A stretch of DNA of 64,000 nt from Owenweeksia hongkongensis DSM 17368 (GTDB lineage: Bacteria; Bacteroidota; Bacteroidia; Flavobacteriales; Schleiferiaceae), in the NCBI RefSeq assembly GCF_000236705.1, contig NC_016599.1:3100001-3164000 (forward strand). Reading direction: 5' to 3'. Made by a program: the position numbers and the translations under genes. Below, piece after piece: positions 20,107 through 59,049 of the stretch (positions within the stretch are counted from its first letter, which is position 1; the number at the start of each line of letters is the position of its first letter). Below the pieces are notes generated by a model that had not been told where the DNA came from, made no database searches, and was given only the letters and a program-made list of their open reading frames with translations.

Positions 20107-23100
20107 ATGAGGATTTTTACATTTTTAATGGCACTTGTTTTGGCTAGCACCTTGTGCTTTGCTCAAAACGGCTCTCTCGATTTTGGGAGTAATAATGCCT
20201 ATGTGTCTTTTGGCACAAACTCAAATTTAGGACTTGCCCAAATTACCCTGGAGGGTTGGTTTAAATGGTCAGGTCACGGCACCACTGCTTCGTCAGGATC
20301 AGGAGGTGTTATTGCTATTCCACTTATCACTAAAGGTAGGGGTGAGTCAGACGGAAATACCAGAGATTTAAACTATTTTTTTGGGATTCAATCAGGAACC
20401 AATTTTTTGTGTGCCGATTTTGAGGAGGGTACTGCAGGAAACAGCCCTGGATTAAATCATCCTATTATAGGAAATACCGCAGTTACACCAAACCAATGGT
20501 TTCATGCGGCTGCTACCTATGATGGCAGCGTTTGGAAACTTTACCTGAATGGTAATCTGCAAGGTTCAATTACTATAAATGAACCACTTCAACACTTAAG
20601 TATACAGCATGCAGCTTTGGGAGCAGCACTTAATTCTGCTGGCTCTGCTGCTGGCCACTTTGAGGGGCTGATGGATGAGGTTAGAATTTGGAGTTATGTT
20701 CGCTCAGAGTCTCAAATTTGGGATGCTGCCGATAGTGTGATTACTGGCCCTAAAGCTGGGCTAGTGGCACTTTGGAGTTTAGATGATGCAACTGGAACTT
20801 CTGTTTTTGATGCATCAGGGAATGTGGTGACAGGAACTATTTTGGGTTCGGGCTATAGCTGGAGTACCGAAGTTGCTCCTTACAATGCCACTTTGGTTCA
20901 GTCTTTAGATTTTGCAAATTCTGGTTCGTACGTAACTTTTGGAAACAATACTACCCTAGGTCTTTCAGCCTTTACGCTAGAGTGTTGGTTTCAAAAAACA
21001 GGAACAGGTTCTACAGCTTATTCTGGTACTGGAGGCGTAACAGCTTACCCTTTGCTTTCTAAGGGACGTGCGGAGTCAGATGGAAATACGAAAGACTTAA
21101 ACTACTTTTTTGGAATTCAATCAGGAACCAAGTATTTGTGTGCAGATTTTGAGGAAAGTACAACAGGTGGGTATCCGGGTTTAAATCACCCAGTGGTAGG
21201 TCATACCGCAATTTTGGATAATCAATGGTACCATGCCGCTGCTACTTATGATGGCGGTACATGGAAACTTTATCTAAATGGAGTCTTAGAAGATTCTTTG
21301 GTGGTGAATGAGCCAGTGCAAAATAATAGTATAGGTCATGCCTCTTTGGCTACAGCGCTTAACTCCACAGGCTCTTCTGCCGGCCGATTTGCCGGACTTA
21401 TGGATGAAGTTCGCGTGTGGGATTACGCCCGTACGGAGCAGGAAATAAGAGCAGATATAAACGAAGAAATCGTTGGTGCTCAACCAAATTTAGTAGCCCG
21501 ATGGGGGATGAATAATGCTAATGGTACTACAGTGATAGATAGCTCGGGCAATGGTGTGGACGGTACCATTGTAGGAGCTGGTTACAGTTTGTCAAATGCT
21601 TCTGCTCCTTTTGATCTTGACTTTACCCCTCCCGATACAAGCAAAGCATTACAGCTAGAAGGTACTGATTCTTACGTGACCTTTGGAGACACTTCAGCGT
21701 TGGGCTTAGCTCAGTTTACCCTTGAGGGATGGGTGAAAAAAGAAGGTAGTGGAGTTACTACTTCTTCAGGTTCTGGAGGTGTTTCAGCTGCTCCGTTAAT
21801 CACTAAAGGGGTTGGCGAGGTTGATGGAAGTAATAGAGATCTCAATTATTTCTTCGGTATACAATCGGGTACCAATGTGCTTTGCGCAGATTTTGAAGAA
21901 GGAGCAGGAGGGTCTTCACCAGGATTGAACCACCCAGTAGTTGGACAAACGGCTTTGCAGGATAACCAATGGTATCATGTAGCGGCAACTTATGATGGAG
22001 CCACCTGGAGTCTTTACCTTAATGGTCAATTAGATGGCACTACCACAATAAATCAACCTGTTCAAAATTTAAGTATTCAACATGCGGGCTTAGGTACTGC
22101 ATTAAATTCCACTGGAACGGCTAATGGTCGTTTTAATGGAAGCATGGATGAGGTGAGAATTTGGAACTATGCTCGTAGTCAAGCACAAATTCTAGCTACA
22201 GCTAATACAGAACTGTATGGTCCACAAACAGGTTTGGTTGCACGTTGGGCATTAAACGATATTGAAGGAAATGTGGTAGCCGATAGTTCCGGAAATGGAC
22301 TTGACGGGCAGCTTATCGGTTTTGGTCACAATTGGCTACAAGCCGGAGCGCCATTTAATGTAGATACCAACTTCAATATAGTTCCGGAAATTACCATCGC
22401 AGATTCTGCTACTGCTGTAGAGTGTGTAGTAGATTCAATTGTACTAAGTGTGGATGTTGACGATCTCAATTCTAAGGATGAATTGGTTGTACAGTTTTAT
22501 GGTCGTCCTAAAAAGAAAAATATTGACCCATTTACCTTAATTGGTCTTCCTGATACACAGTTTTATACTGAGCAAAGTAGAGGAGGAAGTAATGCTATTT
22601 TTAAAGATCAAACGAGCTGGGTGGTTGCTAACCAAGAGGCACTAAATATTGTACACACCATGCAGCTTGGTGATTGTGTTCAAAATGGACAGAATGGTGG
22701 GAATGATATAGAGTGGAAAAGAGCGGATACTTCTATGAGTATTATGGAAGATCCTATCACCACGCATCACCATGATGGGATGTCATACACCATGTGTGTT
22801 GGTAATCATGATCAATCTCCTTTTGGTAGCGCTACTGGTTCCACCGATTTTTACAATCAGTATTTTGGTGTAAGCCGTTTTGCGGGAAGATATTATTGGG
22901 GTGGAAATTACGGTAGCAATGCGGATAATAATTATCAGCTGTTTTCTGCTTCAGGAATGGACTTTATAGTAATTAGCTTGGAGTATGATGCAAATCCAAA
23001 TATATCAGTTTTGGCTTGGGCCGATAGTCTTTTGAAAGCTAATAGCAACCGTCAGGGAATTATTGTTGCTCATTATCTTATCAACACAGCCGGTAACTTT

Positions 23101-25173
23101 GGTTCACAAGGAGCGGCTACTTATAATGCTCTAAAAGATAATCCAAATTTATTTTTGATGCTTAGTGGGCACATAGCAGGTGAAGGTTTGCGTGCGGATA
23201 CCTACAACGGAAATACAGTGTATACCATTTTGGCCGATTATCAAAGCCGAAGCAATGGTGGAGATGGTTGGTTGAGATTAATGGAAATCGATCCTTCAAC
23301 TAAAAGTATGCATGTAAAAACCTATTCCCCATGGTTGAACAAGTATGAGACGGATGCGAATAGTCAGTTTACGCTAACCGATCTTAACATTCCTGGAGAT
23401 GTTACTCCCTTTACTTTGATGCACACGGATTCATTAGCAGGAAATGGAATAGCTAGTTACACATGGAAAAACCTTCCGTTGGATACAACCTACCAATGGT
23501 ATGTGGCAGTAAGTGACGGTAGAGACACTGTGGAGAGTTCGATATACGAATTTAGCACTGCCCCGGGAAGTACCCAAAATGAAAGCATTTGCGAAGGTGA
23601 CAGCATCCTTTTGGGAGGTGCTTATCAAACCGAGGCCGGTACCTATTTGGATTTGCTACCTACAATTGATGGTTGTGATAGCGTGGTGAGTACAATATTG
23701 ACTGTTGATAGTAGCTCCGTTTGTGATAATGTATCAGGCGACAGCCTGGTGATAGTAACGGAGCCCGGTTGGATGAAGAGTACCGTAACCAATACAGCAG
23801 AAGCAGGAAGTTACCCCTGGACAGGTGTAAGCAGTTTGCCAACAGTAGGCACTTATATATTACCGGCAGAGATAGGCCAGCCCTACCCATGGCACTCAAT
23901 TGACAGCGTGGAAGGGGCCCATGTGTTCAAATCAGGCAATGGCGTAACCTTCTTCCGCACCACCTTTACCCTTACGGTAAATACTGGTGTGATGGCTCAG
24001 ATCCGCAGTTTTATGGACGATGGCATGGAGATTTATGTCAACGGGCAGATGCTGGCAAGAGAAGATGACCGTGATGCCGACAACTTTAGAGGAGCCCAGC
24101 ACCACCTAATGCTAATGGCTGATGGCAACCAGAGCAATGGAGATAATGGCGATCAGGCCTTTGATGTGGTAAACAATTACCGCATGGATAGTATGGTGCA
24201 TGTAGGACAAAACGAACTGGTGATAGCTCTAAGGAATGCGCCTCAAACTTCGGACAAAGGAGGTTTTAGTTTCCGTATGGATTTGAAAACGGGCGTACCA
24301 TCAGTACAGCTTTTATCACAATACATTGTGTCTGATGCCGAATGGATGAAGAGTACTGTGACAACTCCAGGCGGATCTAGCTGGAACTGGCCAGGAGTGA
24401 ACAACCTTCCGGCAGCCAATACCTTTACCGAAGAGGTGGAACTGGGCCAGCCTTATCACTGGTACAGCACGGAAGAAGTACCGGGTTCATTTGCCATCAA
24501 GGCCACCGAAAATGTGACTTACTACCGCAGAAGGTTTAACATTACAGACTCTGCCAATATAAGTGCACGATTAAGGAGCACTTTTGATGAAAACCTGATG
24601 GTGTTTATCAATGATAGCCTGATAGCTGGCCACTACCAGCATGGGCTACAAAATCGAGCTATGCCGGCCCACGATGTAGATTATCCAAATGGTGGCATTC
24701 CCATAAATGGTAATGCTGGTGGAGATATGTTTATGCAGGTAGAAAATGTAGACTGGAACCAGATCTTAAGAAAAGGTGACAACTACATTACCGTAGCCTT
24801 GCAGAACAGGGCGAATGAACCAGGAGGCTTTTCGCTAAGATTGGACTTGGATCAATCTGGAGCACCAGTAATCCGGAAAGTGGATGAAGCGAATGAACAT
24901 AGAAACCGAGTAGATAAAGAGGCTTTGGCTTTCAATCTATATCCTAACCCAACCACGGGCAAGGTGTATGTTGAGCTTGTTAAATCACCGTCTGATGACA
25001 ATCAGGTATTGGTGTTTGACCTAAACGGAAAACTGCTTTATCAGCGTACCCTTATCAATCCTGAAACAGGCTTGATGGATATTGATTTGAAAGACTATGC
25101 TGACGGTATGTACATTATCCGAATCCGTTCAGGAGGTGAAATGTACCTTGGCAAAAGGGTGATGAAGTTTTAA
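20107..25173 (+). CDS. Giant T9SS-secreted protein: three LamG domains, metallophosphoesterase, tandem C-terminal module
   Basis: The 1688-residue protein has a signal peptide (1-20) and three LamG/concanavalin-like repeats (about 22-245, 264-495, 514-750; each with LNYFFGIQSGT and MDEVR[IV]W). A calcineurin-like phosphoesterase (about 805-1100) shows IGLPDTQ, GDCVQNG, GNHD, VAHY and SGHIAGEG, so the dinuclear-metal ligands look complete. That domain is inserted between two parts of a fibronectin-III-like sandwich (VVQFYGRPK before, YQWYVAVSDGRDT after). Then come one GCDS repeat (about 1163-1205), the tandem two-copy module (about 1212-1591) and a T9SS type A sorting domain (about 1608-1688, LYPNPTTGK ... 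MYIIRIRSG). It is likely surface or extracellular, degrading phosphorylated substrates while binding glycans. Residues 1210-1688 are identical to the end of the 4841-residue protein. Confidence 0.85.
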   Translation: MRIFTFLMALVLASTLCFAQNGSLDFGSNNAYVSFGTNSNLGLAQITLEGWFKWSGHGTTASSGSGGVIAIPLITKGRGESDGNTRDLNYFFGIQSGTNFLCADFEEGTAGNSPGLNHPIIGNTAVTPNQWFHAAATYDGSVWKLYLNGNLQGSITINEPLQHLSIQHAALGAALNSAGSAAGHFEGLMDEVRIWSYVRSESQIWDAADSVITGPKAGLVALWSLDDATGTSVFDASGNVVTGTILGSGYSWSTEVAPYNATLVQSLDFANSGSYVTFGNNTTLGLSAFTLECWFQKTGTGSTAYSGTGGVTAYPLLSKGRAESDGNTKDLNYFFGIQSGTKYLCADFEESTTGGYPGLNHPVVGHTAILDNQWYHAAATYDGGTWKLYLNGVLEDSLVVNEPVQNNSIGHASLATALNSTGSSAGRFAGLMDEVRVWDYARTEQEIRADINEEIVGAQPNLVARWGMNNANGTTVIDSSGNGVDGTIVGAGYSLSNASAPFDLDFTPPDTSKALQLEGTDSYVTFGDTSALGLAQFTLEGWVKKEGSGVTTSSGSGGVSAAPLITKGVGEVDGSNRDLNYFFGIQSGTNVLCADFEEGAGGSSPGLNHPVVGQTALQDNQWYHVAATYDGATWSLYLNGQLDGTTTINQPVQNLSIQHAGLGTALNSTGTANGRFNGSMDEVRIWNYARSQAQILATANTELYGPQTGLVARWALNDIEGNVVADSSGNGLDGQLIGFGHNWLQAGAPFNVDTNFNIVPEITIADSATAVECVVDSIVLSVDVDDLNSKDELVVQFYGRPKKKNIDPFTLIGLPDTQFYTEQSRGGSNAIFKDQTSWVVANQEALNIVHTMQLGDCVQNGQNGGNDIEWKRADTSMSIMEDPITTHHHDGMSYTMCVGNHDQSPFGSATGSTDFYNQYFGVSRFAGRYYWGGNYGSNADNNYQLFSASGMDFIVISLEYDANPNISVLAWADSLLKANSNRQGIIVAHYLINTAGNFGSQGAATYNALKDNPNLFLMLSGHIAGEGLRADTYNGNTVYTILADYQSRSNGGDGWLRLMEIDPSTKSMHVKTYSPWLNKYETDANSQFTLTDLNIPGDVTPFTLMHTDSLAGNGIASYTWKNLPLDTTYQWYVAVSDGRDTVESSIYEFSTAPGSTQNESICEGDSILLGGAYQTEAGTYLDLLPTIDGCDSVVSTILTVDSSSVCDNVSGDSLVIVTEPGWMKSTVTNTAEAGSYPWTGVSSLPTVGTYILPAEIGQPYPWHSIDSVEGAHVFKSGNGVTFFRTTFTLTVNTGVMAQIRSFMDDGMEIYVNGQMLAREDDRDADNFRGAQHHLMLMADGNQSNGDNGDQAFDVVNNYRMDSMVHVGQNELVIALRNAPQTSDKGGFSFRMDLKTGVPSVQLLSQYIVSDAEWMKSTVTTPGGSSWNWPGVNNLPAANTFTEEVELGQPYHWYSTEEVPGSFAIKATENVTYYRRRFNITDSANISARLRSTFDENLMVFINDSLIAGHYQHGLQNRAMPAHDVDYPNGGIPINGNAGGDMFMQVENVDWNQILRKGDNYITVALQNRANEPGGFSLRLDLDQSGAPVIRKVDEANEHRNRVDKEALAFNLYPNPTTGKVYVELVKSPSDDNQVLVFDLNGKLLYQRTLINPETGLMDIDLKDYADGMYIIRIRSGGEMYLGKRVMKF
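20164..22340 (+). repeat. Three tandem LamG-encoding units
   Basis: The three LamG domains of the first giant gene (starting near 20164, 20895 and 21645) are about 740 bases each. They share long stretches at protein level, including FFGIQSGT, GLNHP[VI][VI]G and the end segment LVA[RL]W. They are clearly internal duplications, now diverged at nucleotide level. Confidence 0.7.
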
Positions 25174-25216
25174 AATAAAGACTTAAACTGTTTAAATCAG
25201 TAAAATCTTTGTGATG
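23733..25216 (+). repeat. Long direct repeat, copy 1 (1.48 kb)
   Basis: This segment aligns without gaps to 45146-46629 at a constant offset of 21413 bases. By eye I find two synonymous substitutions in the coding part and one in the 3' untranslated part. It covers the shared tandem module, the sorting domain and about 40 bases after the stop, and ends right at the terminator stem. Confidence 0.93.
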
Positions 25217-25217
25217 G

Positions 25218-25258
25218 GAGGCTGTCCGAAAAGTAGTTTTCAGACAGCCTCTTTTTTT
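25218..25258 (+). terminator. Rho-independent terminator after the first giant gene
   Basis: A stem of GAGGCTGTC / GACAGCCTC, extended by CGAAAA / TTTTCA-like pairing, is followed by seven T residues. It lies 44 bases after the stop codon. Confidence 0.88.
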
Positions 25259-25827
25259 ATTGAAATTTAAATCCCGAAAATGGAAAAATCAGTCTTTTTT
25301 TGAACATGGTTAAGTGATTGTATTTCAGGCGTATGTTTTAGAAGAGCTCTCTTCATTTACAGCAGAGAGCTTTTTTGGAAACATCTCCCAGATTGGAAAT
25401 TTTAGTATACATGTTGAGATCATGATCTGTTGATTACCAGTGCTTTAGTTTGTCGGTATGGTTATGGTTAATCACATTTAGCTGTCATGTATGTTTGATT
25501 CCAGTACTCTTGTAAAGTGCACCTACTCTCTAAAGTATTTTGTTGTTAGAATATTACTAATTAAAAGAACAAAACCCTTTGAATTAAATTAACAAAAACC
25601 TAAACCTTAACCCCAAATTCTGATGAGTTTACCGCTCCTGCTTTACGAATAGCTTCTCTAGTCGTAAAAATTATTGTCTCAGCACTACATGTTTTGCCTG
25701 TTTGTAGACAAACTTTCGTTTTCAAGAATCTAAATATTTTTTAATTGCCGTATTGCTTAGTTGCGAAGTATACTAGGTTCTTGCCTTATAGATTTAAACT
25801 TTAACCAATTTCTAAATTAAACTTACT
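25259..25827 (+). other. 569-bp AT-rich intergenic region
   Basis: No convincing gene is present. A leader-like string AAACCTTAACC at 25602-25612 resembles the one just before the starts of the 4841- and 2138-residue genes. On the minus strand a short stop-free stretch (about 25600-25750) encodes EAIRKAGAVNSSEFGVKV, which weakly resembles the linker after the shared module (VIRKAG...). It may be a relic of a lost T9SS gene. The rest shows nothing recognisable apart from room for the promoter of the tail-collar gene. Confidence 0.4.
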
Positions 25828-26349
25828 ATGGATCCATTTTTAGCACAAATCATCATGTTTGGAGGAAACTTTGCTCCTCGCGGTTGGGCATTTTGCGATG
25901 GCCAACTATTACCTATTTCACAATACACAGCCTTATTTTCAATACTTGGAACCACCTATGGTGGGGATGGTAGAACTACCTTTGCCTTACCTGATTTAAG
26001 AGGCCGTGTGCCTGTGCATGCAGGTTCAGGTTCAGGTCCTGGATTAAGTTTAAAACGCGTAGGTGAAAAAGGCGGAGCGGAAAATGTAACTCTTTCGGAG
26101 GCACAAATGCCTGCCCATAACCATGCAATTCATGGGTCAAACGTGGGAGGAGATGATTCTGATCCAACTACAGGAAATGGATTTGGTACTGCAGCAAACG
26201 ATTTATATATCGAAACAGCGCCAAGTACAAATATGGGGTCAGGAGTGATGTCCAATGCAGGAGGAGGACAAGCGCACACAAATATGCAGCCATTTGGATG
26301 TGTAAATTTCATTATTGCCCTTCAAGGGGTTTTTCCATCTCGAAGTTGA
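25828..26349 (+). CDS. Phage tail collar domain protein (MdpB/microcystin-dependent-like)
   Basis: The 173-residue protein starts MDPFLAQIIMFGGNFAPRGW, then AFCDGQLLPISQYTALFSILGTTYGGDGRTTFALPDLRGRVP, the canonical tail collar domain. The rest is the glycine-rich tip region with MPAHNHA and a final PFGCVNFIIALQGVFPSRS. Full-length homologues of this type are encoded in many Bacteroidota, often as several adjacent copies; here there is one. There is no signal peptide. Its function in cells is not established. It sits between two giant T9SS cargo genes and no other phage-like gene is nearby. A strong terminator follows. Confidence 0.9.
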   Translation: MDPFLAQIIMFGGNFAPRGWAFCDGQLLPISQYTALFSILGTTYGGDGRTTFALPDLRGRVPVHAGSGSGPGLSLKRVGEKGGAENVTLSEAQMPAHNHAIHGSNVGGDDSDPTTGNGFGTAANDLYIETAPSTNMGSGVMSNAGGGQAHTNMQPFGCVNFIIALQGVFPSRS

Positions 26350-26400
26350 TTGTAAGTACCTCCTTAATTTCAAGGAGTTAATAATTAACCAAATTAAACC

Positions 26401-26430
26401 AAGCTGCACGATGAAAGTCGTGCAGCTTTT
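26401..26430 (+). terminator. Terminator after the tail collar gene, just upstream of the next giant gene
   Basis: A perfect 11-bp stem AAGCTGCACGA / TCGTGCAGCTT with a TGAAAG loop is followed by a short T run. It ends only 13 bases before the ATG at 26444, leaving little room for a separate promoter, so it may also act as an attenuator for the downstream gene. Confidence 0.8.
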
Positions 26431-26443
26431 ATAACCTAACAAA

Positions 26444-29400
26444 ATGAAAACAAAAATATTAAGCTTATTAGCAGTCCTATTGGTTTGTGTCATTCAAGCT
26501 TTCGCACAAACAACGGTTTTTTCCGAAAGCTTTGAGACCAACGGAGAAGTCTCCCGCTATAATTCGAACCGTGGTGGAGTTTGTAATGATTTCTTTGATA
26601 GAGTTTCTTCAACTCCTTCCTGTTTTGCAGGCCCCATCACAGGGGTAGATGGAACCTGGTATTTTGCTGGAGAGGACGTTGATAATGGCACTGCGGGAGG
26701 CGGTCCTGGTAGCGTTACTTTTGTAAACCACAGTATATCTGGACTTTCTAATCTTCAGCTTTCATTTAAATTCGGAACACCAAGAGCGGGTTATGAAATT
26801 GATGATGTTATTCTTGTTCAATATTCTATTGACGGAGGTTCTTTTACAAATGCTATTGTTCTACAAGGAAATCCAATAAACGGAACTAATTCAGGGCCTC
26901 TAAAAGTTGATACCGACAGAAACCCTACGGCAGCTCCACCCACAGGGGCGGATGTTCCTAGTTCAGGCACAATGAGCTTGTATTCATACAGCATTCCAGG
27001 AACGGGGTCAAATATTGTGGTCAAGGTTGTAGTTGATGTTGATGGAGGAACTGAAGAGATTGCGTTTGATTTGGTTAAATTGGAAGGAACACTTGCCGTG
27101 AACTTCCCTCCGGTTCTTGCAAACATAGAAGGGGCATCGCTAAATTACACGGAAGGAGACCCTGCTGCACAAGTAACAAATACATTATCTATATCCGATA
27201 CTGAAAATGACAACATTACCTCAGCAACAGTGGAAATTTCGGCAGGTTTTGCTTCGGGAGAAGATGTATTGTCTTTTACATCCCAATTCGGAGTTACAGG
27301 TTCTCAAACTGGAAGCACACTTTCTTTGTCTGGAATTGCCACACTGGCTCAATACCAAACAGTACTGCGCAGCGTAAAATATCAAAATACAAATACAATA
27401 AATCCAAGCATCGCAACACGTACTATTCGTTTTCAAGTGAGCGATGGAGGAAATAGTAATTTTCAAAGTAGAAATATCAACTTTACCCAAACCCTTAACG
27501 GACCCATTTCTTTGCCCGCTTGTGAAAGCTTTGAAACCGATGGGCATGGAACACGATATTACGCCTATGAGTACGCAAGTGGTAACGATTTTTGGCAACG
27601 ACATGATGCAAGTGGAGGGGCTCATCCCAGCCATGGTCAAGCGATAATCGGAGCTGATGGAAATTGGATATGGGTTGGCGAGGATGTTGCTTCTTCAAAC
27701 CCTAACCCTTCCGGACTGGGTGAATTGCTGTTACAATCTTTTAATGCGGGGGCAGGCACGACATTTTCTGTAGATATTGACGTGGCGGTAAGCGATGTGT
27801 CGCCATCTAGTTGGGAAACTAATGATTATTTAAAGGTACAATATAAAATGGATGCTGGTGCGTGGACTACCATTGGCGCTTTTTATGGTGATGCTTCAAA
27901 TAATTTAGTAGCAGATGCCAATCTGGATGGAATAGCCGATCCCGCAGGTATTATACTTACTAATACTTTACAGCGATTTACCTATAACTTCAACACCAGT
28001 GGAACAAATTTACAGGTGAGGGTTCAACATAAAAGCGATGGGACAGAGGAAATAGCCTTTGATAGAATCTGTGTTGATGGCAATGTTTCGGGTAACGCTC
28101 CTCCGGTATTGGCCAATATAGAGGCTGGCATACTAAATTATGTTGAAGGCAGTGGTGTACAACAGGTAACGAATTCAATTACTGTTTCAGATGCTGAAAG
28201 TGATAATATCACAGGCGCAACCATTGTTGTCTTTCAGGGGTTTGATGCCTCAGAAGATGTGCTGAGCTTTACGCCACAATTTGGTGTGGTAGGGGCATAC
28301 GTTGGAAACACCTTAACCCTTACAGGTTCGGCTACCCCGGCTCAGTACCAAACCTTGCTTCGCTCAGTATCCTATCAAAATACCGATGGCTCTGATCCTT
28401 CTTTACAAAACCGCACTATACAGTTTCAGGTTTCGGATGGTGCTGGAAGTAACTTCCAGACCAGGGACATAAGTATAGATGCCTCACTGCAGGCTGCCCA
28501 AAGCCTACCTTACTGCGAAAGTTTTGAAACTGACGGACATGGTGTTAGGTACGCTGCATACCAGTTTAATGATGCCAGCAATAATTTTTGGGAGCGTCAT
28601 GATGCCAGTGGGGGAGCTCATCCAAGTCATGGCCAAGCCATTTTAGGTGCTACCGGTAGCTATATTTGGGTAGGTGAAGATGTTGATGAAGCTTCAAACC
28701 CAAACCCAGCTGGTATTGGAGAAATGTTACTTACCCCTTTTAATGTAACATCTCAAGACAGTTTTACTGTGTCGGTAAACCTAGCCGTAAGTGATATTGC
28801 TCCGCTGAGTTGGGAAGCAAGTGACTATGTAGTGGTTGAATATAAAATGGACGCAGGGGCCTGGACAAAAATTGGAGCTTTTTATGGCGATGGAACCACC
28901 AAAAAGTTGACGGAAGATGCTGATCTAAATGGTATTGCCGATCCGGCTGGTACAGCTCTTACCAACACTTTAGCGCCATTTACTTATGGGTTTACTGCTT
29001 CAGGCGGCACATTACAGGTTAGGCTGTTGCACAAAAGCGATGGCTCAGAAGAATTAGGATTTGATAACTTCTGCATAACAGGGTTTTCAAGTTGCAATGA
29101 ACCTGATATTCCTACAATCAGTACCAGTGGAGTTTGTAATCCACAAACGCTTAGTATTACTTCAGGCAACTTAAATGATGCTACAAACTGGCATTGGTAC
29201 ACCGGTAGCTGTGGAGGTACTTCTGTTGGCACAGGTAATTCAATTATAGTTTCTCCAAATAGCTCTACTATTTATTATGTAAGGGGTGAAGGTGGCTGTG
29301 TAACACTTGGCGCATGTGCCAGTGTTACGGTTGGCCCAGATGGAGTTGCTCCAAATCCTGTTTGTCAAAATATAACAGTATATCTAAATGCAGCTGGTAC

Positions 29401-31840
29401 CGTCACAATTGTGGCTGCCGATGTTGATGGCGGAAGTACAGATAATTGTGGTGTTGACTCACTGTATGTTGATAAAACAACTTTTACCTGTGCTGACGTT
29501 GAGACAGATACTGTAAGTCTTACGGTATTTGATGCAGCAGGAAATTTTAGTTCTTGTAATGCCATAGTTACAATTGAGGATACCATTAGCCCGGTAATTT
29601 CATGCCCTGGTGATGTTACTGTTAGTAATGACGCTGGAGTTTGTGGAGCAACAGTTGCTTACGCTATTTCAGCCACTGATAATTGTGGCGTTGCACCTGA
29701 TTCCATTCCTGGCTTTTCTACCCTAGGAACTCATAATGGCAAGATTTATTATGTTTCAAATATTGCCTTTACTCCACAAAACGCTTATGCTGATGCTTTG
29801 GCAAATGGTGGCTATGTAGTGACAGTAAACAATGCGGCAGAAAACACCTTTTTGGCTCAGGGAATCGCAAATAGATCCCTTTTTGAGGCATGGATTGGAT
29901 ATGATGATAGCGAGGTGGAAGGGACTTTTGTTTGGCAAAATGGAGAAGTTTCTGGATATTCTAATTGGGATGCTGGCAACCCAGATAATGCTGGAAATGA
30001 AGACTATGTTGAATTAAAATTTTATGGCGTGTGGAATGATAGAACTGCAACTACAACTATGCCTTACATTCTGGAAAGAAACATTGGTATCCAGCAAATT
30101 GAAGGTATTGCCAGCGGTGGTTTCTTTCCGGTAGGCGTTACAGTTAACAAATTTGTTGCAGTTGATGATGATGGTAATTCTGACACCTGTTCATTTACTG
30201 TTACAGTTAATGACACTGCCTCACCCACCTTGTTTACAGATAGCATTTGCCTTGGCGATAGCCTTTATGTAGGTGGTGCGTGGCAAACGGTTCCTGGAGT
30301 TTATACCGATACTGCAACAGCAGCTAGTGGGTGTGACAGCCTTTTGGTTACCACCTTATACTACCAAGCGGATTCTATTTGCCACTCAAACACTCCCGAC
30401 AGCCTACTTATCGTATCAGACGCAAGCTGGATGATGAGCACAGAGGTTAACACTGTAGATGCATATAGTTACCCTTGGCGAGGGGTTACCACTCTTCCTG
30501 ACGTATCTACTTACACCCTTCCTGCAGTTGTAGGTCAGCCGTACCACTATCACTCTATTGACAGTGTTGATGGTGCTCGGGTATTGCGTGGAGACAATGG
30601 AATTAGATTTTTCAGAACTACTTTTAATCTGAATGTTGACACAGGTGTAGCTGCACAAATCATCTCACGTATGGATGATGGAATGGAAATTTACATAAAC
30701 GGACACATGATAGCACGTGAAGCTAACCGAACCACAGCAAACTTTTTAGGTCTTCCTCATAACTTAGTTCTTCTTCAAAATGGTGATCAGGACAATGGTC
30801 ACAATGGTGATATGGAATTTGATATCGTGAATAATTACCGCTTGGATTCAGTAGTAGTAGCTGGAGAAAATGAGCTTATAATTGCTCTTAGAAATGCACC
30901 ACAAACTTCTGACAAAGGTGGTTTCAGTTTCCGCATGGAGCTAAAAACCGGTGAAGCTTATATGCCAGAACTTACCGGATACTTGGTTTCTGATATAGAG
31001 TGGATGGAAAGCACAGTAACCACTCCAGGGGGAACTAGCTTTAACTGGTCTGGCGTTAGTGGTCTTCCAGCTGCAAATACATTCACTAAAAATGTAATGC
31101 TTGGTCAACCATATGGATATTATAGTATCGAAGAAGTACCTGGCTCATTTGCGATAAAGTCTGGTACTGATGTAACCTACTATACCAGAAGATTTACCAT
31201 TATGGATTCTGCCGATGTAAATGTGCGACTACGTTCTACATTTGATGAAAGTGTGATGATTTATGTAAATGGGGTATTGATCGCGGCAGACTATTCTACA
31301 AACTACAGTGACCGCACTCTTGCAGCCCATGATGTAGACTTTCAAGCAGGAGGTACCATAACCAACGGAAATGCCGGAGGAGACTTGTTTGACCAAGTAG
31401 AAAGTGTTGACTTTGACAACATACTTCGTAAAGGAGATAATTACGTTACTGTAGCTCTTCGCAATAAAGGTATTACTGACAAAGGTGGCTTCTCCTTACG
31501 ATTAGATTTAGACAAAGCAGGAAGCCCTGTAATCCGTAAAACCACCTCTGAAAGAAATGGGAATGAAGATAAAAAAGCAAACGACCTTCAAGTGAACTTT
31601 AATATTTATCCTAACCCAACCACAGGTAGAGTAATTATTGATCTAATTGAAAGCCCCACTGGAGACAACACAGTTACCGTGCTTGATTTGAATGGTAAGG
31701 TGATCATGAATCGCTCCTTGGTAAACCCACAAACAGGCATCATGGATATTGACTTAAGCGAACTTGCTAATGGAATGTATATTATCAGAGTAAAATCTGG
31801 GGATACAAACTACCAAAGCAAGCGAGTGATGAAGTTCTAA
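26444..31840 (+). CDS. Giant T9SS-secreted protein with C-type lectin domain nested in an HYR domain
   Basis: The 1798-residue protein has a signal peptide (1-22). Three copies of a sandwich domain that opens ESFET(N/D)G and has GEDV (near 27, 357, 688) alternate with two cadherin-like units (near 224 and 548, each ending in a QVSDG strand). An Ig-like region follows (about 890-965), then HYR-type domains (about 970-1265). A C-type lectin-like domain (about 1095-1210, AWIGYDDSE, FVWQNGE, GNPDNAGNEDYVEL) interrupts the second HYR between ATDNCG and IEGIASGGFFPVGVTVN. The rest is one GCDS repeat, the tandem module (about 1324-1697) and a T9SS type A sorting domain (IYPNPTTGR ... MYIIRVKSG). It is probably a surface adhesin that binds sugars. 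Its copy of the shared module is clearly diverged from the other three. Confidence 0.85.
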   Translation: MKTKILSLLAVLLVCVIQAFAQTTVFSESFETNGEVSRYNSNRGGVCNDFFDRVSSTPSCFAGPITGVDGTWYFAGEDVDNGTAGGGPGSVTFVNHSISGLSNLQLSFKFGTPRAGYEIDDVILVQYSIDGGSFTNAIVLQGNPINGTNSGPLKVDTDRNPTAAPPTGADVPSSGTMSLYSYSIPGTGSNIVVKVVVDVDGGTEEIAFDLVKLEGTLAVNFPPVLANIEGASLNYTEGDPAAQVTNTLSISDTENDNITSATVEISAGFASGEDVLSFTSQFGVTGSQTGSTLSLSGIATLAQYQTVLRSVKYQNTNTINPSIATRTIRFQVSDGGNSNFQSRNINFTQTLNGPISLPACESFETDGHGTRYYAYEYASGNDFWQRHDASGGAHPSHGQAIIGADGNWIWVGEDVASSNPNPSGLGELLLQSFNAGAGTTFSVDIDVAVSDVSPSSWETNDYLKVQYKMDAGAWTTIGAFYGDASNNLVADANLDGIADPAGIILTNTLQRFTYNFNTSGTNLQVRVQHKSDGTEEIAFDRICVDGNVSGNAPPVLANIEAGILNYVEGSGVQQVTNSITVSDAESDNITGATIVVFQGFDASEDVLSFTPQFGVVGAYVGNTLTLTGSATPAQYQTLLRSVSYQNTDGSDPSLQNRTIQFQVSDGAGSNFQTRDISIDASLQAAQSLPYCESFETDGHGVRYAAYQFNDASNNFWERHDASGGAHPSHGQAILGATGSYIWVGEDVDEASNPNPAGIGEMLLTPFNVTSQDSFTVSVNLAVSDIAPLSWEASDYVVVEYKMDAGAWTKIGAFYGDGTTKKLTEDADLNGIADPAGTALTNTLAPFTYGFTASGGTLQVRLLHKSDGSEELGFDNFCITGFSSCNEPDIPTISTSGVCNPQTLSITSGNLNDATNWHWYTGSCGGTSVGTGNSIIVSPNSSTIYYVRGEGGCVTLGACASVTVGPDGVAPNPVCQNITVYLNAAGTVTIVAADVDGGSTDNCGVDSLYVDKTTFTCADVETDTVSLTVFDAAGNFSSCNAIVTIEDTISPVISCPGDVTVSNDAGVCGATVAYAISATDNCGVAPDSIPGFSTLGTHNGKIYYVSNIAFTPQNAYADALANGGYVVTVNNAAENTFLAQGIANRSLFEAWIGYDDSEVEGTFVWQNGEVSGYSNWDAGNPDNAGNEDYVELKFYGVWNDRTATTTMPYILERNIGIQQIEGIASGGFFPVGVTVNKFVAVDDDGNSDTCSFTVTVNDTASPTLFTDSICLGDSLYVGGAWQTVPGVYTDTATAASGCDSLLVTTLYYQADSICHSNTPDSLLIVSDASWMMSTEVNTVDAYSYPWRGVTTLPDVSTYTLPAVVGQPYHYHSIDSVDGARVLRGDNGIRFFRTTFNLNVDTGVAAQIISRMDDGMEIYINGHMIAREANRTTANFLGLPHNLVLLQNGDQDNGHNGDMEFDIVNNYRLDSVVVAGENELIIALRNAPQTSDKGGFSFRMELKTGEAYMPELTGYLVSDIEWMESTVTTPGGTSFNWSGVSGLPAANTFTKNVMLGQPYGYYSIEEVPGSFAIKSGTDVTYYTRRFTIMDSADVNVRLRSTFDESVMIYVNGVLIAADYSTNYSDRTLAAHDVDFQAGGTITNGNAGGDLFDQVESVDFDNILRKGDNYVTVALRNKGITDKGGFSLRLDLDKAGSPVIRKTTSERNGNEDKKANDLQVNFNIYPNPTTGRVIIDLIESPTGDNTVTVLDLNGKVIMNRSLVNPQTGIMDIDLSELANGMYIIRVKSGDTNYQSKRVMKF

Positions 31841-31862
31841 ATAAATCAGTTTTAGCGATTGC

Positions 31863-31901
31863 AAATCCCGGCTACCAAAATAGGAAGTCGGGATTTTTTT
31901 T
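31863..31901 (+). terminator. Rho-independent terminator
   Basis: A stem of AAATCCCG / CGGGATTT, with three further inner pairs, is followed by a run of T residues. It lies 22 bases after the stop of the 1798-residue gene. Confidence 0.82.
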
Positions 31902-32060
31902 GAAGGAAGAAAGGGACAAAACCAACTAATCAATCAAATAGGTCAATTACTCTTTTCGGTTGTCTAAGATGTTTTTGTAGTTGTTTTTTTGTGCCTATTT
32001 AGTTAGTTTTAATTGATTATCAAGGCTTAGTAGACTTGATTTTTAACCAAAACCTTAACC

Positions 32061-35000
32061 ATGCATCAAGACTATTACCGTTCAAAGCCCTTTAAGGCTA
32101 TTGTGTATTTCTGCACTTCTGTCATTTTTTCAAATCACCTTATTATGTATTACAATTCCTCACACCTGAGGAGGACAATTCTTGTCTTCCTAGCAATAAT
32201 GCCTGTTCTTATTTTTGGGCAAACTGTACAAATGGGCTCTGGAACATCAGCGACTGGTGTTAATGGTCCATCACCGGTAAATAATAGGTACCGAAGCCAG
32301 CATTACCAAATTGTATATAGTAAAGGCGAGCTAAATGCTGTGGGGATTACAGCTGGCAATATTGAAAGGCTAGGGTTTTACATAGCCTCTTCTACCAGCC
32401 AAGCCATACCAGATTATAAAGTAAGTCTGGGCCACACCACGGCTCGCGCTGCCTGGCCGTATCTTACAGATCCTGTTCGTCAAGTATATTATAATGCTTC
32501 CTATGCACCTGCAGCCGGAGGTTTTGACATGCTGAGGCTAGACACTTCATGGTACTGGAATGGAGTGGATAATATTATTGTGGATGTATGTTTTGATTAC
32601 GGAGTGAACCCTAGCATATCCACGGGTACCGTAAGAACTTACAATGACTCTAATTATAGAGTATCGTATGGAACGTCATCCGTTTTTGATCTTTGTGGTA
32701 CCAGCAACTCAAACAGTACTACAGCCAAACCTCAGGTGCAGTTTGAGTTTACATCACCCACTTTGAATGATGCTGGAATATCGGATATATCTCCAAACGG
32801 TCAGGTTTGTAGTGGTTCCCAACCTGTGAGAGCTACGATTATTAATCATGGTACAAATGCCCTTACAAGTACAATGATAAACTGGTCAGTAAATGGAGTG
32901 GTACAGACACCGGTAAATTTTGCAGGTTTGCTAAGTGCTCAAGGTGGAAGCGCAGATGTAGCTCTCGGCAACTACTTTTTTGTTCAAGGTGTGAATTATA
33001 CTATCCAGGCATGGACTACATCGCCTAATGGAAATATAGATGGCAATGGTGATAACGATAGCCTTGGCGTAGAAATGTCAGGTGCTCTTTCAGGTACTTA
33101 CACTATTGGTGGCGGTGGAGCTGATTATTTAAGTTTTACAAACGCTGTGGCTGATTTGGAAATGTACGGTATATGCGGAGACGTTACTTTTAATGTAGCC
33201 TCAGGTGGCTATTTTGAGCAATTGGAAATCAACGAAATACCTGGGGTGAACGCGAATGCTACCGTAACATTTCGGAGTGCAAGTGACGATAGCTCAACTG
33301 TGGTTCTTTCGCATGGTGCAAATAGTGCTGCAAACTATACTCTTTATATAAATGGGGGAAGTTGGGTAACCTTCAAAAATCTAACAATAGAGTCTACCGA
33401 CAATTATTATGACCGTGTGGTTTTGATTGGTGATGAGTCAAATCATCTTTCTTTTGAAAATAATATTATTAGGAATGCGGCAGCTTCAACACCTCATATT
33501 CACCGCAATATTGAGGTGGAGAGTAATGCAAATAGCGATTGGTTAAACTTTAGCAACAATAGAATTTATCAGGGACACCGTGGTATTTACTGTGCTTCCC
33601 AGTATTCAGATCATTATATCATTACGGGAAATACCTTTTTGCACCAGCGATATGGGGGTGTGGAAATGTATTATGCCGATTTTGTAACGGTAGATGACAA
33701 TCAAGTAATTACTGATATTACCAATACAAGCGGAATTCAGGGAATATTGGTTTATGATGCGGATAGCAGTGTTTCTATTCAAAGGAATATAGTGCGTGGC
33801 GGCATTAACGGTTACGGTATTAGTGTTCAATACAGCGATGCTACCAGCGGTGGTCAGTATTTAGTAGCCAACAACTTTGTGAGTATTGGCAGAAACACCG
33901 GTACTACCCGAGGAATTTATCTTTTAGGATGCCGATATGTAGATGTGGTTTTTAATACGGTGAACGTAACTACCCCCAGTACCAACCACTACGGGATACA
34001 GGTGAGCAGCTATAATGATAATCGTCTGTACAATAATAATGTTCGTGCAGATGGAGGCTATGCACTTTATGTAAATAGTTCCAACGATGTTGTTGATTCA
34101 GATAATAATAACTGGTACACGGGTAGCTCCATTTTAGCCTACTGGCAAGGCACTACAGTTTCAGATTTAGCAGGCTTGCAGGCCGCATCATCACTTGATG
34201 CAAATTCCTTTAACGAGCCTCCTTATTTTATCAATGACTCTTCTTTTCAGGCCACTCAAATTTCTTTGAATAATAACGCTGCTCCTTATATTGGAATCGC
34301 CACCGATATTGAGGGCGAAGCCAGAGATGGCTCTAATCCAGATATAGGTTGTGATGAATTTACACCCCACAATGATGATGCAGGAGTACTGGCAATTATT
34401 CCCCCAGCTACACCTTTTGCACCAAGTACTCTACCAGTAACAGCTGTGCTTAAAAATTTCGGAAACAATACCCTCACTAGTGCTACTATTAATTGGCAAG
34501 TGAATGGAGTGTTACAGTCTTCTGTAAATTTTTCAGGTTCCATTGCAAGTGGAGATACCGTTAGTGTACTGCTGGGTAATTTCAATTTTGCTACAGGAAC
34601 TATTTATTCCGTGGAAGCCTATAGTAGCGTACCTAATGGTAGTGCCGATGGTAATGCAATAAATGATTCTGCCATGGTAGGCCCATTTGCCCCGGCTTTG
34701 GGCGGAACTTATACCATCGGTGGTACGTCTCCTGATTTTGCAGATTTTACCACTGCCCTGGAAATATTAAACCTTGGTGGAACTTATGATTCTACCGTCT
34801 TTGATGTGCGAAGTGGTACCTACACCGAGCGTATTGTCATTGAGAATTACCCTAAGCTAAACCCTGCAGATCATGTTACTTTTCAATCAGAAGCGCAGGA
34901 TAGCTCTGCAGTAACGATTACTGAAGGTTATTTGAACTCAAGCACCAATTATGTGGTAGCCCTGCACGGGGCTGTGGGGGTGAGTTTTGAAAAATTAACT

Positions 35001-38000
35001 ATCCAGAATACATCCACAAACTCATATGGTTCTGCTGTCCAGATTGACTACGGATCATCTTATATAAGCTTTAATGAATGTGCAATAATGGGGGGTACAA
35101 CTACCAGTGCGGCCAGCGCAGCCCTCTATGTTCGAAAAAGTGTCGGTGGATATCCACCACAGCATCATATTTATGTGACCAATTCTAGTCTCTCCGGCAC
35201 CTATTATGGAGCCTATTTTTACGGATTATCCATCCGAGAGAATAATATTAGGATAGAAGACTGCCATATCAATGACTTTTATGGAACGGGGATTTATGTT
35301 TACCTGGCAGATAGCGTTTGGGTGATGAATAATACAATTATACCCCGTTCATCGGTTACTACAAACTCTTATGGAGCTTACCTGTATGATCTTCATGAGG
35401 GCGAATTCTCGGGCAACCAGATTCTTGGACATGGCCTTAGGTATGGTGCTGAGTTTGGCTTTCTAGATGGAGTAATTTCAAACCCCTTTATTGTTGCTAA
35501 CAATTTCATCACAAGTGGAGGGAATGTTTCAAGTGGCCGAGCTGTTTATAGTTATGCATGCACTTATACAAAGTTTGTACATAACAGCTTGTGGTGTAGC
35601 AATAGCCAGAATAATTCCGTGGCTTTTCAGGATCATAATAACAATGCAACCATTGATGTATTGAATAATATTTGCCTAAACACGGGTGGTGGCTATGCTT
35701 ATGATAAAAATTCTGCCAGTGCCCAGCAAACCATAGATTACAATAACCTTTATGCCACTGGCACTTTTCTGGCTAGATATGGAACTATTGATATTTCGGA
35801 TTTTGCTACTTGGCAAAACACCAGCGGACATGATTCCAACTCCGTTTCTCTTGACCCGCAATTTGCGACCATGGATGATTTGCATACCAGTGCGTCCGGC
35901 CTTAATGCCGCGGCCACTCCGCTTAGCTATATAACTACCGATATTGATGGTGATGTTCGCGACCCCTCTACTCCGGATATTGGTGCGGACGAATTTGTAC
36001 TGGCTGGCAGCGATGCCGCCTTGCTGGAATTTGATGCTCCACGTTTGCCATTTTCTTCAGGTCTGCAAAATGTATATGTGAGCCTTTTAAATAATGGAGG
36101 TGACACACTTACAAGCGTGGATATACATTGGGAAGTAAACGGGGTAGCCCAATCCACTTTTGCATGGACGGGCACTTTATCCAGCAGTCAATCCGAAGAC
36201 TCAATAAGTATAGGTAACTTCAATTTTATGGCAGACACAAATTATACTCTGAAAGCTTGGACGAGTCTTCCAAATGGTAATGCAGATATATTGGCGGCTA
36301 ATGATACCATTCAAAGTACAAACATTTTTGCAGCGTTATCCGGGACTTACACCATCGGTGGAACAACGCCTGACTTTAGTGATTTTACATCAGCTGTAGC
36401 AGCTCTTCAAGCGAGAGGAATATCCAATAATGTGGTATTCGATATACGCGATGGAGTTTATGATGAATACATAAAAATTATACGCTTTGCTAAAACAAAT
36501 AGTATGGATTCCGTGGTATTTCAATCAGAAAGCGGAAATAGTGCTTCCGTGGTATTACAAACGGGCAATACTAGTGAGCCAACCTTAGGACTTAATGGGA
36601 TAACAGGGATAAGTTTTAAAAACATAACTATAGCTCATACCTATTATTGGTCTGGGCCGAATGTAATAAGATGGGCTGGTGTGAGTAACCTGAACATTAT
36701 TAATTGTGAAATTAAAGATTCGCTGTATTCACCAAGCCCTTCTGTCGGTGACTATCTTATCTATAGTCCTTATAATTACCCCAATTATAACATCCGTATT
36801 ATAAATACGACATTTAAAAATGGTAGGTATGGAATCTATATGAATACTCCAAGTGCCTCTGGTGCAGATAGCAATCTAGTGATTAAAAATTGTGTATTTG
36901 ATGATCAATATTACCAAGCCATTAATGTCAGATATCTGGACAACCTCGAAATAAGGGGTAATACTATTATCAACCGCAGAGGCCATACTTCCTACGATGG
37001 TATGGTTATAGACCAAGTTGGTGGAGTGATAAATATAAGCAATAACCAAATGCGTCACATCACACATTATGGATTGGCACTTTTCAATATATCTGCAGCA
37101 CAAGGCACACCGGCTACTATTTCCAATAACTACATCCAAATGGAAGGCGCAAATACTGGTGCCATTGGTATTTATCTTTATATATCGAGTTATGTGAACT
37201 TGGTTTATAATTCAGTGAGTTCATTTACCACAGCAGCTTCGTCACGAGCTTTTTACGGTTACGTTAATAACAACTCAAATGTTCTTAATAATATTTTTCA
37301 GCAACATGCAGATGGTATGGCTACTGAATGGCTGAGCAACAATGTTTCTAACACGGTTTATAATTTTAATAATCTATTTACCCCAGGAGCTACTTTAGGG
37401 GAGTATCAAAATACACCTTATGCTGATCTTACGAGCTGGATAAGTGGTACAGGTCAAGATTCCAACTCGGTTTCCATTGATGCCCAATTTAGTGACACCA
37501 CAGATTACCACGTAGAAAGTGGTGCTCTTGATGGAACGGGAATACCACTAACCTATATAAGCACCGATTTGGATGGCGATCTCCGCGATCCGGCAACACC
37601 TGATATCGGTGCAGATGAAATTAGTATCAATACTAATGATGCATCCCTTACAGCTTACCTCAGACCTAGCAAAGTATTTGCCCCAGGCAACCAAACCATT
37701 TATGTAGACCTTCTAAACAATGGTTCGGATTCACTTACAAGCGTTCAGATAAACTGGACTGTAAATGGAATGGTTCAGACTGCTTTTAACTGGGCTGGAG
37801 CATTGGCCACAGGGCAGGGTGAAGATTCTGTTGCAGTGGGTATTTATAATTTTACACCACTCACCTCACATGATGTAGTGGTTTATACTTCTATGCCAAA
37901 TGGCCAACCGGATGATTTGCCGGTAAATGATACTGTAAAGAAACTTAGCTTGTACCCCGGCCTGGCTGGTATTTATACCATTGGAGGTGTCTCACCGGAT

Positions 38001-46586: not shown

Positions 46587-46629
46587 AATAAAGACTTAAA
46601 CTGTTTAAATCAGTAAAATCTTTGTAATG
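45146..46629 (+). repeat. Long direct repeat, copy 2 (1.48 kb)
   Basis: This is the partner of 23733-25216, in the same orientation. The protein encoded (last 479 residues) is identical in both genes. The left boundary falls exactly between the GCDS repeat and the tandem module, and the right boundary at the base before the terminator stem. Confidence 0.93.
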
Positions 46630-54398: not shown

Positions 54399-55235
54399 TC
54401 AATACTCCCAAAGATCATGTTCGAAATTGCGAAGCTCTTCTTTTATCTGCTGAGCCTCCAATAACTGATCAAGAGGTGAATTTCTCTTGTAGTCTTTAAT
54501 CTGGCGGTCATAAACATTATCTTCCTTATAAATCACAGAGTTAAAGTAACGTATGTGGAAAATTTGGTCATATGTTAAACGTGCCGCATTGTTTTGGTTA
54601 TTGAAAGCGGTGTGTGTGGACAATGCATAACGTGCATCTGGAAACCAAACCCAAAATAGAGTATAAACATCTTGTGTAGAAGGGTTTCTTACCACAGGCG
54701 AAATTCCGATAATTCGATTCTTCATTTCCCCACGTTGCTTATCAAAGAACCAGTCAGATTTAATCTGGTAGGCTAGTACATCTTTGGCAGTAATTTTAAT
54801 AGTATCTACTGCTAAATACATACTCGGGTCTTCGGGATCCCAAAGAGTGTCAACCTTCGAAGCATACTTTTGAACTTGCTCAGGCGTAAGCGGTATTTCA
54901 AAACGATCGTCCGCAAAAACCTCCACAATTGTTCCTTCGTTTAGAATTCCATCAACTAAAACATCGTAAAGACTCTTTCTATCGGGAATGGCCTGAATAG
55001 GATAATAAAGGTGATGATTGATTTTCTCGCGAAGATCAATTCTTTCCCAATGGCGAGTACTCCACAGCATATCCGATTCCCTTAAATAAGGGTAAGGAAA
55101 CACTTGATTGTGGTGGTAGTGCTTGGGTGGGTCGGGAATGATACCATCATCCTGAGGCGTAAGAACTTGAGCCTGTGAAGAAAAACTCACAGCCATAGCT
55201 CCAATCATCATTAAACTTATTATTATCCTTTTCAT
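54399..55235 (-). CDS. gldN: Gliding motility / T9SS protein GldN
   Basis: The 278-residue periplasmic protein has a signal peptide (to about residue 22, SSQAQ). GldN (PorN) forms, with the GldK lipoprotein, the ring-shaped periplasmic/outer-membrane part of T9SS. Recognisable features are the DVLVDGILNEGTIVEVFADDRFE segment split around residue 90, the IKSDWFFDKQRGEMKNRIIG region and the FWVWFPDARYALSTH region, all typical of the family. It is the last gene of the sprF-gldK-gldL-gldM-gldN operon, 14 bases after gldM. Confidence 0.93.
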   Translation of the reverse strand: MKRIIISLMMIGAMAVSFSSQAQVLTPQDDGIIPDPPKHYHHNQVFPYPYLRESDMLWSTRHWERIDLREKINHHLYYPIQAIPDRKSLYDVLVDGILNEGTIVEVFADDRFEIPLTPEQVQKYASKVDTLWDPEDPSMYLAVDTIKITAKDVLAYQIKSDWFFDKQRGEMKNRIIGISPVVRNPSTQDVYTLFWVWFPDARYALSTHTAFNNQNNAARLTYDQIFHIRYFNSVIYKEDNVYDRQIKDYKRNSPLDQLLEAQQIKEELRNFEHDLWEY

Positions 55236-55249
55236 CGTATTCTATATTA

Positions 55250-56797: not shown

Positions 56798-56862
56798 GTT
56801 AGAGGTCTATTTTCTTTAAGTTGTTAATCTTATTCGATTGTCAAAAAAGTCCTGAAACAGGC

Positions 56863-57528: not shown

Positions 57529-57570
57529 AGGTTGAAAAATTAAAAATTAAAATTTGAGTTTGTAGAAAAA

Positions 57571-58992: not shown

Positions 58993-59049
58993 GTTATACG
59001 GTGTTAATTTCGTGTTGATTTTCAAATAGTTTCAATCAAGGCTGCTATA

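Follow-up and report, generated by a model that had tools for sequence, protein, structure and literature searches.

What is the long repeated block that four neighbouring giant proteins of Owenweeksia hongkongensis DSM 17368 carry near their C-termini, and why should four such proteins end alike? The window (by which we mean the whole stretch of 64,000 nucleotides that was analysed, G000:C1:3100001-3164000, where G000 is the 4.0-Mb single-contig genome of this strain) encodes the four proteins, here called P1 to P4, and each of them ends in a sorting domain of the type IX secretion system (T9SS) with the block ahead of it. We find that the block is made of two copies of one domain, referred to below as the module, and that the module pair, the sorting domain and the stop codon have been copied recently between genes. 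The reading that we favour, to which we give a probability of about one half, is that the block is a pair of galactose-binding-like jelly rolls that serves some type A cargo of the T9SS as a C-terminal stem close to the cell surface.

Four giant proteins end in a pair of related domains

The open reading frames (ORFs) of P1 to P4, with their modules and sorting domains, are arranged as follows.

20107-25173, + strand: P1 ORF, 1688 amino acids (aa)
23728-24285, + strand: P1 module, first half, a predicted jelly roll (profile match and structure model)
24301-24849, + strand: P1 module, second half (profile match and half-versus-half alignment)
24937-25155, + strand: P1 type A T9SS sorting domain (PF18962, by Pfam)
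26444-31840, + strand: P2 ORF, 1798 aa
30386-30943, + strand: P2 module, first half (profile match)
30962-31510, + strand: P2 module, second half (profile match)
31604-31828, + strand: P2 sorting domain (PF18962, by Pfam)
32061-46586, + strand: P3 ORF, 4841 aa
45144-45698, + strand: P3 module, first half (profile match)
45714-46262, + strand: P3 module, second half (profile match)
46350-46568, + strand: P3 sorting domain (PF18962, by Pfam)
46854-53270, + strand: P4 ORF, 2138 aa
51825-52382, + strand: P4 module, first half (profile match)
52401-52946, + strand: P4 module, second half (profile match)
53037-53237, + strand: P4 sorting domain (PF18962, by Pfam)

The first-pass annotation had placed a block of two related halves before the sorting domain in all four giant proteins, and both points are borne out, the first by profile and Pfam matches and the second by the alignment of the two P1 halves, which are 33% identical over 181 residues with an E-value (3e-34) that puts their relatedness far beyond chance. 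Each half is about 185 residues long, with two per giant protein. The end given for the P1 block, position 24880, overshoots the second half by about 30 nucleotides (nt). Across the eight halves of P1 to P4 (six of them distinct, those of P1 and P3 being nearly equal) 37 columns are invariant, and in an alignment of 47 copies the W, GQP, H and N positions are invariant or nearly so. The motifs G-V-x-x-L-P, G-Q-P and G-G-F-S that had been described occur in all eight halves, as does the opening W-x-x-S-T; the V said to follow it is found in seven (the first half of P2 has E), and the closing D-L, present elsewhere, reads E-L or D-I in the first halves of P2 and P4.

Two parts of that description call for amendment. 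Although P1 to P4 do contain a tandem of two copies, the unit is a single domain. We examined 31 module ORFs, including one in genome G785, and set aside one (in locus L059) that is cut by a contig end. Among the 30 complete proteins that remain, 15 have two adjacent copies, three have two separated copies (L054, L058 and the G785 protein) and 12 have one. Two weaker, diverged copies also lie upstream of the PhoX region in the L051 protein (residues 275-394 and 426-568), and likewise in its G001 relative, L056. Moreover, although the four proteins share the block, P1 and P3 are not independent, both holding the same 1480-nt tract of DNA with two differences.

Gene ends from module to stop codon are nearly identical between genes

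Three cassettes that run from the module past the stop codon and have a near-identical copy lie in the window.

23733-25212, + strand: P1 cassette (module pair, sorting domain, stop codon and 39 nt), whose partner is the P3 copy
45146-46625, + strand: P3 copy of this cassette, nearly identical to that of P1
30398-31842, + strand: P2 cassette, 99.93% identical to G000:C1:2039920-2041364, which lies 1.09 Mb away

The two differences between the P1 and P3 cassettes, at 23853 and 23943, are both at third codon positions and silent, and outside the tract position-by-position identity falls at once to background. Note that upstream of the cassette P1 and P3 can still be aligned as diverged repeats (31% aa identity over 139 codons), so that the 5' edge lies within diverged repeat sequence and not in wholly unrelated DNA. 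The P2 cassette and its distant partner differ at one position in 1445 nt, again silently (GAC/GAT), and the cargo of the partner, a beta-helix, is unrelated by Pfam to that of P2 (C-type lectin, HYR and Ig-like). In both tracts the near-identity sets in with the opening codons of the module (SGDSL.. in P1/P3, DSLL.. in P2 and its partner), and it ceases 39 nt and 2 nt after the stop codon, respectively; beyond the 3' edge the sequence differs between partners. Because other full-length cassette pairs among P1 to P4 and the distant partner are 64-68% identical, the unchanged silent sites show recent copying and not selection. Comparison at the DNA level therefore indicates that module, sorting domain and stop codon have recently been copied between genes.

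A third pair of gene ends, without the module, is found at G000:C1:1970304-1972709 and 1772942-1775347 (L125 and L126, with open frames of 1901 and 2042 residues). Its members are 97.3% identical over 2408 nt, with the last 2.1 kb nearly identical and the likeness extending about 70 nt past the stop codon; on the 5' side identity falls to diverged yet related sequence (22-36 matches per 50 nt). (The loci compared for near-identical ends were picked for holding T9SS genes, and enrichment at T9SS gene ends is therefore not a genome-wide statement.) Two stretches served as controls. For the first 20 kb of the window, where other genes predominate, 40 of 61 candidate matches were scored and none of those off-site exceeded 81% identity; for 25214-45145, which comprises P2 and most of P3, 40 of 42 were scored, and the sole near-identical copy elsewhere coincided exactly with the P2 cassette. 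By reading, with no dedicated tool run there, the cassette edges have no evident repeat or mobile-element signature. A half-palindrome was found by pattern, and terminator-like hairpins were read by eye past the 3' edges; the candidate after P1, at 25219-25250, has a mismatch in its stem and is not listed by a terminator scan after P1.

Related genomes were compared as well. P2 and a G003 gene (L064) share 81% aa identity over the 78 codons just upstream of the cassette and 38% over 182 module codons; since identity falls again further upstream, the mosaic is a local one and does not prove a swap. In the syntenic G001 relative of P4 the first half groups with P1/P3 (95/89) and the second with P4 (100/76), a split that, with identities of 82 vs 70% and 73 vs 76%, offers weak support. 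In the five genomes searched, the cargo regions of P1, of P2 and of the distant partner have partial matches and no complete orthologue, and the best cargo match of the distant partner, in G001, stops at a contig end.

We tentatively suggest that module, sorting domain and stop codon form a recurrently copied 3' display cassette, that unrelated surface proteins may gain or renew a common stem through gene-end copying, and that the same process may act on other giant T9SS genes with a different end, as in the third pair. Two routes of copying are conceivable, gene conversion of the RecA type acting on diverged cassettes and illegitimate recombination; edges as sharp as these would fit either one if the recipient already had a homologous end that stopped there.

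The module accompanies type A sorting domains and varied cargo

PF18962 scored above its cut-off in all 25 C-terminally complete module proteins scanned, P1 to P4 included; a 26th scanned ORF, cut by a contig end, has no PF18962. (This count spans 25 of the 30 complete proteins; the other five, four G001 relatives and the G785 protein, were judged by eye from their tails.) TIGR04183 is above its cut-off in P1, P2, P4 and the C-terminal part of P3, which marks their sorting domains as type A, and in 25 of the 30 complete proteins the last module copy lies 95-109 residues from the C-terminus. The tie to the T9SS that had been drawn from the window is thus a strong one.

Module and sorting domain also co-diverge. 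The Mantel correlation between module distances and sorting-domain distances is 0.57, with 0 of 5000 permutations as high (23 of 25 alignment rows), and r is 0.35 without the 10 closest of the 253 pairs, a value given without permutation.

The module is independent of the type of cargo ahead of it, which by Pfam includes LamG, C-type lectin/HYR, CARDB with beta-helix, subtilase with LTD, PhoX, thermolysin M4, integrin-beta-like and GEVED domains. The enzymes among the cargo are, again by Pfam, a phosphatase and proteases, which stand beside adhesins and lectins; no glycosidase family above cut-off and no GH2 catalytic domain was found in the module proteins scanned.

Of 184 candidate sorting domains in the genome of O. 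hongkongensis 150 were scored, all of them above cut-off, so that the genome encodes at least 150. One sorting-domain match, at G000:C1:1391957-1392169, has an internal TAA stop and is possibly a decayed T9SS gene.

The module gives weak matches to catalogued families and is predicted to be a jelly roll

No Pfam match over the module reached its printed cut-off in the 26 module ORFs scanned whole. The best was to PA14 (PF07691) in L051, with an E-value of 1.2e-4 and 22.3 bits against a cut-off of 24; PA14 is absent from the Pfam matches of the other module proteins scanned whole, and it matched two of 47 single copies at E<=1 (best 3e-4). BetaGal_ABD2 (PF13364, cut-off 23 bits) scored 17.1-22.5 bits for P1, P2, P4 and the C-terminal part of P3 and 16.8 bits for one half, and matched 11 of the 47 copies at E<=1 (best 1.5e-3). 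Glyco_hydro_2_N (PF02837) matched seven copies weakly at E<=1 (best 2.9e-3, by E-values only) and is not among the Pfam matches of the whole module proteins scanned. In all, 19 Pfam families matched single copies at E<=1, with E-values of 3e-4 and above, and the cleaved-adhesin profile is not among them for any of the 47. A single NCBIfam model, alpha-L-rhamnosidase, matches seven of the 47 copies weakly (best 5.9e-5). Compared by sequence with the PDB, the 47-copy profile scores best with a lectin, at E 8e-4 over the chain and 0.06 in its single best stretch; the lectins so matched presumably represent a mushroom lectin. As these matches are weak, a known Pfam or NCBIfam domain is rejected as far as tested. 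A sequence match to lys-gingipain (E 0.03), obtained with an early profile, was dropped, being no longer listed with the larger one. We found no description of the module in the titles and abstract openings of the papers listed on the T9SS and on domain shuffling, most subscription papers lying outside this scope.

A structure model of a single half, with a predicted local distance difference test score (pLDDT) of 94.2 and a predicted template-modelling score (pTM) of 0.91, has by prediction a galactose-binding-like jelly-roll fold. The best Foldseek matches in the PDB are GH2 enzymes and the carbohydrate-binding modules CBM36 and CBM6 (E about 4e-4 to 1e-3), with modest query-normalised template-modelling (TM) scores of about 0.3-0.45. 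On realignment with VIA the N-terminal sugar-binding domains of GH2 beta-glucuronidases lead (Z 10.1, root-mean-square deviation 2.9 A, 126 aligned), and among the matches listed the top rows are GH2-type enzymes at Z 8.3-10.1; a Z of 10 exceeds the tool's quoted usual background of 7-8. A viral fold search, which returned PA14 and tail proteins with low TM-scores, was uninformative. The model of the tandem with the sorting domain is moderate (pLDDT 83.8, pTM 0.60), and its sole long stretch under pLDDT 50, residues 388-398, lies directly ahead of the sorting domain. Note that the predicted sharing of a fold with GH2 domains does not in itself show a function. The first-pass annotation had guessed at a beta-sandwich of galactose-binding type in no named family; the model and its GH2, CBM36 and CBM6 matches support the fold, and the absence of a name holds as far as tested, since the searches turned up neither a well-described Pfam domain nor a lack of repeated fold.

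The module is restricted to a few related genomes

A first profile gave 16 copies in eight proteins of O. hongkongensis. With the 47-copy profile at E<=1e-10 there are 50 copies (one of them partial) in six of the 88 genomes of the family, namely 16 in O. hongkongensis, eight in G001, 22 in G003, one each in G009 and G019, and two in G785. Out of 395 genomes sampled across the phylum, O. hongkongensis alone passed E<=1e-15; among 395 genomes of the class, 65, O. hongkongensis included, pass E<=1e-3, and among the matches listed a full-length match is found in O. hongkongensis only, the rest being partial and mostly covering positions 61-184. The partial matches belong to a wider jelly-roll domain in other Bacteroidia proteins (loci L077-L094), to which profile comparison (hhalign) relates the module family with a probability of 98.1% over positions 61-172. 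A weak LTD-like stretch, below cut-off, precedes this wider domain in two of four proteins scanned, and no YPNP-like sorting motif lies within about 360 residues downstream of it (17 loci, with DNA covering 171-501 residues). The module is a lineage-restricted, uncatalogued subfamily of a known fold.

A proposed stem for type A cargo and its alternatives

How might such a stem work? PorU removes the sorting domain of type A cargo. After export of a module protein, PorU would be predicted to cut off the sorting domain, and the jelly rolls would then be the C-terminal part closest to the outer membrane. There they could serve as a rigid spacer, dock on a surface or matrix glycan, or do both, whatever cargo lies ahead (phosphatase, protease, adhesin or lectin). 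Gene ends could be replaced by recombination with function kept, because stem and sorting domain would work with any cargo. We infer this spacer or docking role, and the fold that underlies it is a predicted one.

Five observations weigh against the stem. First, G002, which is of the same genus and 98% complete, has no module copy (47-copy profile, E<=1e-10). Second, in the other five of the 30 complete proteins the last module copy lies 129, 225, 226, 229 and 838 residues from the C-terminus. Third, of the 150 scored sorting domains of O. hongkongensis, 142 are in proteins without the module and eight in module proteins, so that the stem is not needed for export and the module is not, as had been envisaged, a unit of the whole secretion class. 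Fourth, GH2-type jelly rolls are often purely structural, and the fold alone therefore does not show sugar binding. Fifth, the C-terminal domains (CTDs) of Flavobacterium johnsoniae determine the localisation of their substrate, according to a figure title in one report (PMC12618676), which would narrow the part that a stem can play.

The module might instead be a folded spacer or insulator pure and simple, free of ligand, that separates cargo from sorting domain in transport. Its independence of cargo and its place ahead of a flexible linker and the sorting domain speak for this, and the IgSF domain of RgpB has been suggested to act in such a way (PMC4804311); however, the near-invariant W, GQP, H and N positions would go beyond the conservation expected of a spacer, though a structural reason for them is possible, and we consider this account somewhat unlikely. 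Less probable still is a substrate-targeting role, in which the jelly rolls would attach to polysaccharide from the environment and keep the cargo enzyme at its substrate, in the manner of a CBM linked to an enzyme. The presence of CBM36 and CBM6 among the Foldseek matches, the PDB lectin as best profile match, the weak alpha-L-rhamnosidase matches and the hydrolases among the cargoes all point this way, but those cargo enzymes are phosphatase and proteases, with no glycosidase above cut-off in the proteins scanned, and the Foldseek E-values reach only about 4e-4, with the modest TM-scores given above.

The co-divergence of module and CTD and their joint copying could also mean that the two make up one longer signal for secretion or sorting and are recognised together, either by the translocon or by a shuttle dedicated to them, for instance the product of the neighbouring porP/sprF, a gene that adjoins the cluster together with gldL, gldM and gldN. 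Against this, the sorting domains are type A by TIGR04183 and PorV recognises type A CTDs (PMC12618676), mCherry-CTD fusions bind the F. johnsoniae translocon (PMC10994853), and the great majority of the scored sorting domains do without the module, which makes an extended signal improbable. Finally, short-read polishing can, as is generally known, level small repeat differences, but it is most improbable that the near-identity of the cassettes is an artefact of assembly or polishing, as each copy lies in a gene of its own, with flanks and a sequence past the 3' edge unlike those of its partner, polishing could not bring cassettes of 64-68% identity to 99.9%, and the decay of the third pair on its 5' side into diverged related sequence is like that of a real recombination tract.

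Returning to the stem, what would follow from it? The module defines a domain family for which no Pfam or NCBIfam model was found above a printed cut-off and which marks a set of surface proteins, and cargo-independent ends are seen to be copied across one genome within T9SS genes. If this is true, T9SS surface proteins would evolve by placing new cargo on a standard, swappable delivery end. Confirmation would provide a simple rule for the diversification of Bacteroidota surface proteomes, as well as a portable display stem of natural origin, one that could serve as a tool in a laboratory Flavobacterium.

Neighbouring genes and other features

The remaining features of the window that concern us are the following.

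54399-60018, - strand: T9SS core genes gldN, gldM and gldL, an FGE-sulfatase-domain gene and porP/sprF, adjoining the giant genes and convergent with them
25828-26349, + strand: gene for a 173-aa protein with a phage tail collar domain (PF07484), between P1 and P2

The FGE-sulfatase-domain gene is presumably gldK-like. Residues ~830-1100 of P1 presumably form a calcineurin-type phosphoesterase, to judge from the motifs GDxVxxG, GNHD and GH, and are not listed as such by Pfam at E<=10. A cysteine-containing repeat (C-x-GDS...GG-x-YQT...GxY-x-D...GCDS) lies ahead of the module in P1 (residues ~1155-1205) and in several places in P3 and P4; it also matches other long open frames in related genomes. 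Elsewhere in the genome, another giant T9SS locus (L134, G000:C1:3290459-3291873) contains internal tandem repeats of about 273 nt with 86-93% identity, and a 4.2-kb duplication with 85% identity connects the giant T9SS loci L137 and L138 (G000:C1:3911599-3915820 and 3921105-3925314).

Comparison with known systems

The wider Bacteroidia jelly-roll domain has in common with the module the homologous core and a D-D-x-x-x-x-Y-x-N-G strand, whereas it does not align to the module's first 60 residues, which would be either family-specific or too diverged to align. The N-terminal sugar-binding domain of GH2 enzymes (PF02837) and BetaGal_ABD2 (PF13364) resemble the module in their jelly-roll fold and weak profile matches, but GH2 enzymes have a catalytic domain, and none is listed in the module proteins scanned. 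In RgpB a flexible linker joins the IgSF domain and the CTD, and the IgSF domain may, as its authors suggest, be a spacer or insulator (PMC4804311). It is like the module in being a folded beta domain with a flexible linker to the CTD, a linker that the low-pLDDT stretch of the tandem model resembles, and differs in having an Ig fold, not a jelly roll, and in being a single domain of about 83 residues.

The adhesins of Porphyromonas gingivalis offer a further parallel. In RgpA, Kgp and HagA, which are also surface proteins of the T9SS, the sorting domain is preceded by repeated adhesin domains that are common to several genes. The genes hagA and kgp are described as having 3' ends that are virtually identical and believed to recombine (PMC9328147), while a reshuffling of gingipain adhesin domains, with combinatorial domain modularity, is described as well (PMC5266723); a process of this kind is thus already known in T9SS genes. 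In contrast to the module, however, the P. gingivalis repeats belong to another domain family (cleaved-adhesin) and occur within a small set of related genes, whereas O. hongkongensis has an unlinked pair whose cargo is unrelated by Pfam and which shares just module, CTD and stop codon. What differs from P. gingivalis is the family to which the domain belongs, the sharing by two unlinked genes whose cargo is unrelated, and a unit that runs cleanly from module to stop codon.

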